Assembly: GCA_028871815.1 (NCBI GenBank)
Contig: JAGWMJ010000004.1
Location: forward strand, 124,001-188,000
Length of the DNA: 64,000 nucleotides
Source of the DNA: Armatimonadota bacterium
GTDB taxonomy: Bacteria > Armatimonadota > Chthonomonadetes > Chthonomonadales > Chthonomonadaceae
Reading direction: 5' to 3'
Made by a program: the position numbers and the translations under genes. Positions 2,181-3,137 of this stretch are shown here, in pieces. The stretch's first letter is position 1, and each line of letters starts with the position of its first letter. The notes below the pieces were generated by a model. It worked only from the letters and a program-made list of their open reading frames with translations. It did not search any database and was not told where the DNA came from.

Positions 2181-3137
2181 GTGGTATACGAATGGGGAAT
2201 GGTGCCGGTTCGCTCGGCGTCCCCGCCAGCCCCCAATGACCGGGACGACACACGAGCGTTACGTGTTGGCAAAGGGGGCAGCTTAAATGGTTATTCGATT
2301 GCCCGGCGTAATGTTCGTCCGGCCGCTTTCGTCTCTCTCTCTCTCTCTCTCTCTCTCTCTCTAGCGTGCGCTCGCTTTGTTTGTGTCGCACGGCTTAGGC
2401 GCCGCTCCCTCACACGCATAGCCGCCGCTGCCGCGACGCTTGGCGTCGCCGCCGCCACAACCAGCTGCGGCGGCGGCGGCGCACCGGCCGTTGCAGGCGC
2501 GGTGCGCACCACCATAAACTGGCCGCAGCGCTCCCGCGCCATCAACGCCCTCGCCTCCTCGCTGTCGCTGGTCGTCACGTTCAAGGGCGCCGCATCCAAC
2601 GGCGGCGACTTCACGTGGACCATCAACCGCGCCGGCGGCGCCGGCGCATACAGCCAGCCGGCCGCCACACCGGGACCGGTGCATTACGGCAGTGTGCAGG
2701 TTTCTGTGAACTCTTTTGCCCAGCCGGACGGGCAGGGTTCTCAAACCGGTTCGGATTCCGGCACCGTGCTGCTCAAGCCCGGGGCGGGCGGGGCACAACT
2801 GCCAGGAATCCAATTGCCGACCGCGATTCAGGGCATCAGCGCTGGGTACGCTGGTGTGGTGCCGCCTTTCACCTACGTCCTCCTCCAGGTCCAGGTGACT
2901 GGGCCAGGAGCCGCTGGCGGGGCGGTCAAGTCCGGGACGCCGGTGCACCCCTTCGTGGTAACCCCCGGTTCACTTTTCTGGCGCCTGATCAGCCCCACCG
3001 ACGGCAGCGTTAGCTTGACGCCGGACGGCGTGATCTTCAGCGACGGTACGCACGCTATAGCGACCGTGGCTGTCACCGCAGATGGGGTGTCTAGCGCACC
3101 AAGCGGTATCGCGCTGGAGACGCTCTCGCCGCCGTAA
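2181..3137 (+). CDS. Putative phase-variable secreted lipoprotein
   Basis: The product has an arginine-rich n-region (RLRRRSLTR), an alanine-rich hydrophobic stretch and a lipobox-like TTSC followed by glycines, so it is probably a lipoprotein. The mature part of roughly 230 residues looks like beta-sandwich or Ig-like sequence (TFTWTINRAGG-like and DGTHAIATVAV stretches), without a family I can name. The start is unusual. The frame open across the (TC)15 tract begins at ATG 2181, which has no ribosome binding site. ATG 2287 has AAAGGGGG eight bases upstream but meets TAG directly after the tract (2362-2364). Loss of one dinucleotide or gain of two would join ATG 2287 to the lipoprotein frame as a 282-residue protein. 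The gene is therefore probably switched off as written, or the tract length is misassembled. Confidence 0.6.
   Translation: MVYEWGMVPVRSASPPAPNDRDDTRALRVGKGGSLNGYSIARRNVRPAAFVSLSLSLSLSLACARFVCVARLRRRSLTRIAAAAATLGVAAATTSCGGGGAPAVAGAVRTTINWPQRSRAINALASSLSLVVTFKGAASNGGDFTWTINRAGGAGAYSQPAATPGPVHYGSVQVSVNSFAQPDGQGSQTGSDSGTVLLKPGAGGAQLPGIQLPTAIQGISAGYAGVVPPFTYVLLQVQVTGPGAAGGAVKSGTPVHPFVVTPGSLFWRLISPTDGSVSLTPDGVIFSDGTHAIATVAVTADGVSSAPSGIALETLSPP
2332..2362 (+). repeat. (TC)15 dinucleotide microsatellite inside the lipoprotein gene
   Basis: A perfect run of fifteen TC units plus one T lies between the best-supported start codon (ATG 2287) and the signal peptide. It is translated as alternating Ser-Leu in the open frame. 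Because the unit is two bases long, gain or loss of one unit changes the reading frame, as at classical contingency loci. A second tract of the same dinucleotide class, (AG)18, lies in the methyltransferase gene at 46613. Confidence 0.9.

Follow-up and report, generated by a model that had tools for sequence, protein, structure and literature searches.

To our knowledge, work on surface genes switched by repeat slippage has been confined almost wholly to host-adapted pathogens. The opa genes of Neisseria, for example, carry a CTCTT pentamer in the leader-peptide region of beta-barrel opacity proteins, while phase variation of the Campylobacter jejuni Type IIG enzyme uses a homopolymer. The closest known case to the gene described here is oipA (hopH) of Helicobacter pylori which, like related hop genes, carries CT repeats where its signal peptide is encoded (PMC10564699; PMC3960876); the repeats in oipA cause frameshifts and early stops, and in this way switch the outer-membrane protein (PMC10564699). 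Phase-variable R-M genes are also documented, both in C. jejuni, where the product is a Type IIG enzyme (PMC4889913), and in H. pylori (PMC3936762).

The stretch of DNA analysed here (the window, 64,000 nucleotides; G000:C4:124001-188000) belongs to a 3.68 Mb, 22-contig draft assembly of an Armatimonadota bacterium. The family to which this bacterium belongs is known mainly from draft genomes. The window contains a predicted lipoprotein gene that, like the hop genes, would encode an exported surface protein and carries a CT/TC tract near the 5' end of its coding region; in both cases several such loci occur per genome, and some tract lengths would be in frame while others meet early stops. However, the tract lies inside the signal peptide in hop genes, whereas here it occupies a leader before the signal peptide; furthermore, the protein families are unrelated, the phylum is a different one, and the switching is a predicted one. 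The product is not a Hop-family beta-barrel, and no Pfam domain in it reaches the cut-off, so that the gene would work like oipA without being a member of its family. With opa it would share on/off control of translation through a repeat close to where a surface protein's signal sequence is encoded, although opa differs in its pentanucleotide unit and in encoding beta-barrel opacity proteins. The kind of switch is known and the lineage is new: a literature search for Armatimonadota and phase variation found no report, which is a weak negative.

The tract and its reading frames

All window features described below are on the forward strand. A Shine-Dalgarno-like sequence, AAAGGGGG (2271-2278), stands 8 nt ahead of ATG 2287, which lies 45 nt 5' of a perfect (TC)15 plus one T (2332-2362; TRF period 2, 15.5 copies, 100% match). 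The frame opened by this ATG (2287-2364) encodes 25 residues, MVIRLPGVMFVRPLSSLSLSLSLSL, and ends at a TAG (2362-2364) that includes the final T of the tract. The lipoprotein frame (2364-3137; ...RLRRRSLTRIAAAAATLGVAAATTSC-GGGG..., coding RLRRRSLTRIAAAAATLGVAAATTSCGGGG...) is in a different register, and no ATG, GTG or TTG occurs in that frame between the tract and the lipoprotein signal. A tract of 29 nt (one TC fewer) or 35 nt (two TC more), rather than the present 31 nt, joins ATG 2287 to the lipoprotein frame. The first-pass annotation had claimed that the ATG with the ribosome binding site runs into a stop after the tract while the signal continues in another frame, and that losing one TC or gaining two would connect them; TRF and frame reading confirmed the former, and the register the latter. 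Its further claim that the gene is apparently switched OFF is supported insofar as the assembled consensus length is correct.

As in described contingency loci, the repeat unit is not a multiple of three and the tract is far longer than chance would allow. Under a first-order Markov model with window statistics, (TC)>=15 is expected ~5e-12 times and (TC)>=8 about 0.0015 times in the 3.68 Mb genome when both strands are counted. Scans for a sigma-70-like promoter upstream of the lipoprotein gene and for a terminator were both blank.

The 257 codons that follow the tract form an intact putative lipoprotein body. Its signal (2364-2468) consists of a positive RRR n-region, an alanine-rich core (AAAAATLGVAAATTS) and ATTS-C, with the Cys codon at 2466-2468 followed by GGGG; the mature protein (2469-3137) would occupy the 222 codons past the Cys as an intact ORF. 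TTSC is a weak lipobox, and homologues have LTGC, SAGC, FAGC or CEGC. A single-sequence structure prediction of the mature protein gave a pLDDT of 32 and was set aside. The family is present in other genera too, and its distant homologues (in G027, G040 and G007, and a C6 gene of the same genome) start directly before an ordinary lipoprotein signal, with neither leader nor tract. Leader and tract are therefore an added module.

A paralogue in the ON register

A search of the genome with the window lipoprotein recovered a second copy at C4:325.3-326.1 kb, which provides the best evidence for reading the tract as a probable switch. It is 89% identical to the window copy at the DNA level over ~1 kb, from ~125 bp upstream of the ATG and including the leader, and keeps AAAGGGGGACAGCTTGA-ATG at the ribosome binding site. 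In the same place its tract (G000:C4:325350) is (TC)5.5, TCTCTCTCTCT, which at 11 nt versus 31 nt is 20 nt shorter. Here the frame of the ATG 2287 equivalent stays open across the short tract and enters the signal, MVIRLPDVMYVRPLSSLSLARARFVCVARRRRRSLTGIAAAAATLGLAAATTSC, an observed ON register, and since the two tracts differ by 20 nt the window copy, compared with its paralogue, is OFF. Tract length thus places the same start codon in frame in one copy and out of frame in the other. About 190 codons in, the paralogue body has lost 1 nt; over the 186 codons before this deletion, the two copies are separated by 16.5 changes of each class, synonymous and non-synonymous (dN/dS 0.39), which indicates past constraint on the coding body, though the paralogue is now damaged downstream.

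Recurrence in the genome and in a sister genus

Tracts of this class are few. The genome contains six (TC/AG) tracts of at least five units and only four of at least eight (~0.002 expected), three of which (in the window lipoprotein gene, at C1:241115 and at C2:972) lie between a Shine-Dalgarno-supported ATG and a signal peptide; the fourth, at 46613, is inside a methyltransferase gene. The C1 and C2 tracts are 14.5 units (29 nt) and 8.5 units (17 nt) long, both 33 nt after ATGs that are preceded by AAAGG- or AAGG-type sequence. At both loci the ATG frame is out of register, the other frame encodes a signal peptide (SVAALLVGLTTVARTSSAQ and CLAILLVGLTTAAPISSAQ, respectively), and no start codon lies upstream in the signal-bearing open frame. 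At C1 this frame, which includes an intact signal peptide, is open for at least 843 codons, and the protein yielded no Pfam domain; the C2 frame stops after 314 codons. The two proteins are related (72%) and under purifying selection (dS 1.05, dN/dS 0.18 over 217 codons), which means that the tract has been kept at constant spacing over ~1 synonymous substitution per site while its length differs. A third copy of this family (L057, on G000:C16) retains the upstream region, and its ATG, tract and signal peptide are deleted.

Homopolymers provide one further case. The only G10 tract in the genome (C5:176507; around 1501 in L200) lies between a Shine-Dalgarno-supported ATG and a Tat-type signal, RRDFLKAAAITVGATAAGAAGLA, of a ~500-codon ORF that is out of register; another ATG, without a ribosome binding site, occurs just before the G10 in the right frame. 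The assembled state is thus OFF at all four long-tract leader loci of this genome (window, C1:241115, C2:972 and C5:176507). Besides G10 there are four G8-G9 tracts, none in the leader of an exported protein, and the genome has no CA/GT tracts of 7 units. A 5-unit tract at C1:514211 was considered as a switch and rejected, being of chance-expected length and just upstream of another gene's start.

Tracts of the same kind are present in a sister genus of the same family (g2; three genomes examined). At four loci there, an ATG is followed by a leader of exactly 67 nt, a (GA)7.5-11.5 tract (15-23 nt) and then a hydrophobic signal leading into a long ORF. One of them, L046, is in frame and hence ON (447 residues), while L047 and L059 are out of frame and OFF; L048 is OFF from the conserved ATG, and a further ATG lies 12 nt ahead of its tract. 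Conserved tract position combined with varying length, a feature of contingency loci, is therefore seen in the window gene and its paralogue, in the C1/C2 pair and among the sister-genus loci. The first-pass annotation had noted a second tract of the same class within the window and had proposed scanning the genome and its relatives for tracts at gene 5' ends; the former is the methyltransferase tract described below, and the expectation behind the latter was borne out in both the genome and the sister genus.

Proposed mechanism and alternatives

Our data suggest that the window gene is very probably a contingency locus, undergoing translational phase variation by slipped-strand mispairing. 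The length of (TC)n would change through such mispairing at replication. In one length class out of three, the leader from ATG 2287 would be joined to the signal peptide and the lipoprotein made; in the other two, a stop at or just after the tract would leave the cell without this surface lipoprotein, and the assembled window copy would belong to an OFF class. The anatomy (initiation site, short leader, tract, export signal), the registers, the ON-phase paralogue, the recurrence at independent exported-protein genes and the purifying selection on coding bodies are observations. We infer that the tract mutates at high frequency and that expression really switches, the benefit of which may be varying surface exposure, whether as escape from phages or predators or as bet-hedging. 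Weighing against this reading are length differences seen solely between paralogues, the decay of some copies, the OFF state of all four long-tract leader loci in this genome and the blank scan for a sigma-70-like promoter.

Alternatively, the gene could be a decaying duplicate in which tract expansion broke the frame for good, with no selected switching. The frameshifted body of the paralogue, the early end of the C2 frame, the lost leader and start of the C16 copy and the OFF state of all four long-tract leader loci are consistent with this, and since some copies in this genome are decaying it may apply to individual loci. As an account of the window gene it is improbable: the body is intact for 257 codons at a dN/dS of 0.39, C1 and C2 combine a dN/dS of 0.18 at a dS of about 1 with conserved tract spacing, and the arrangement recurs in the sister genus with another repeat and one copy ON. 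A gene that is ON now, starting at GTG 2181 or ATG 2202 and carrying SLSLSL as part of a long N-terminus, seems very unlikely even though a frame of 318 codons that spans the tract begins at GTG 2181. The frame of these two starts is not conserved; in the paralogue a TAG closes it and a 1-nt indel immediately ahead of the ATG shifts it, and on these grounds a start in the 2181 frame was rejected. Furthermore, other homologues begin right before an ordinary lipoprotein signal, and C1 and C2 have no in-frame upstream start at all. The first-pass annotation had held that its reading would fall if homologues started at the equivalent of 2181, and the paralogue proved to start at the equivalent of ATG 2287.

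Stutter is common at dinucleotide tracts, and in a 22-contig draft assembly the assembled length could be off by one unit or be a consensus over a mixed population. The present state would then be ON or undecided, an outcome compatible with slippage switching. This is rather unlikely, as 31 nt is shorter than one short read and three independent TC loci share the OFF register. That the window, C1 and C2 tracts need an identical frame change to connect could also point to leaky expression from the OFF register, with transcriptional slippage or ribosomal frameshifting serving as dose control. At least one sister-genus locus is in frame, however, and so no single obligatory shift is common to all loci, which makes such dose control an improbable candidate in the extreme.

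A second tract in a methyltransferase gene

The other long tract in the window is (AG)18 (46613-46648; TRF), a second contingency-type tract that lies towards the C-terminus of a methyltransferase. The 1169-aa ORF (43263-46772) is an Eco57I/N6-methyltransferase with DrmMI and Type IIG as nearest models; it reads across the AG tract and terminates 124 nt beyond it. The C-terminal part follows in another frame (46762-47847), and in homologues the two parts form a single protein. Between them are three imprecise tandem copies, ~113 nt apart, of a 35-residue segment, each in a different frame, with only the third frame reaching the C-terminus. At its present length, the tract directs translation into the first copy and then to a stop. 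The R-M genes of C. jejuni and H. pylori likewise carry slippage tracts within DNA methyltransferase genes, but the present tract differs from that of C. jejuni in being a dinucleotide located towards the C-terminus and followed by three segment copies in three frames. The surrounding genes (42211-49447) match the PADLOC candidate defence models PDC-S11, PDC-M45A and PDC-M45B, and the neighbourhood suggests a putative defence island.

Distribution and significance

Tracts of eight units are rare in the phylum, with T-initial tracts in 12 and C-initial tracts in 14 of 291 genomes. To pass a mechanical enrichment test, a tract had to have close by the start of a frame that is open for 100 codons or more and whose first 60 residues include a hydrophobic stretch. 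This test was passed by 10 of 34 tracts, compared with 4.7% of control positions. With the present genome and the sister genus left out, 5 of 27 tracts passed versus 5% (p ~0.01, with p from 0.001 to 0.03 across the range of cut-offs), a modest phylum-wide enrichment beyond these two. The weakly hydrophobic window signal itself fails the test.

A broader reading, which we regard as evenly balanced between right and wrong, is that of a lineage-wide contingency system, in which a dedicated cassette of leader plus dinucleotide or poly-G tract (TC or GA according to genus), inserted after the ribosome binding site and ahead of the signal peptide, would serve several unrelated exported proteins, alongside tract-bearing R-M genes. 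That such a device apparently serves several exported proteins as well as a defence methyltransferase suggests that phages, predators or fluctuating habitats also select for it. Automatic annotation will label such genes truncated or start-less; the present finding yields a simple list of testable loci.

Two further arrangements were seen elsewhere in the phylum. In three genomes of another family (L159, L162 and L164), (GA)9-19 lies inside HsdS-like genes after a conserved ...EARRKQYTFYRDQLLTF, as judged by eye; these genes likely encode phase-variable Type I specificity subunits. In some other phylum genomes (L192, L194 and L198), the (CT)n tract itself codes for the Ser-Leu hydrophobic core of the signal, e.g. 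MRCSLSLSLSLLALSALSHA.
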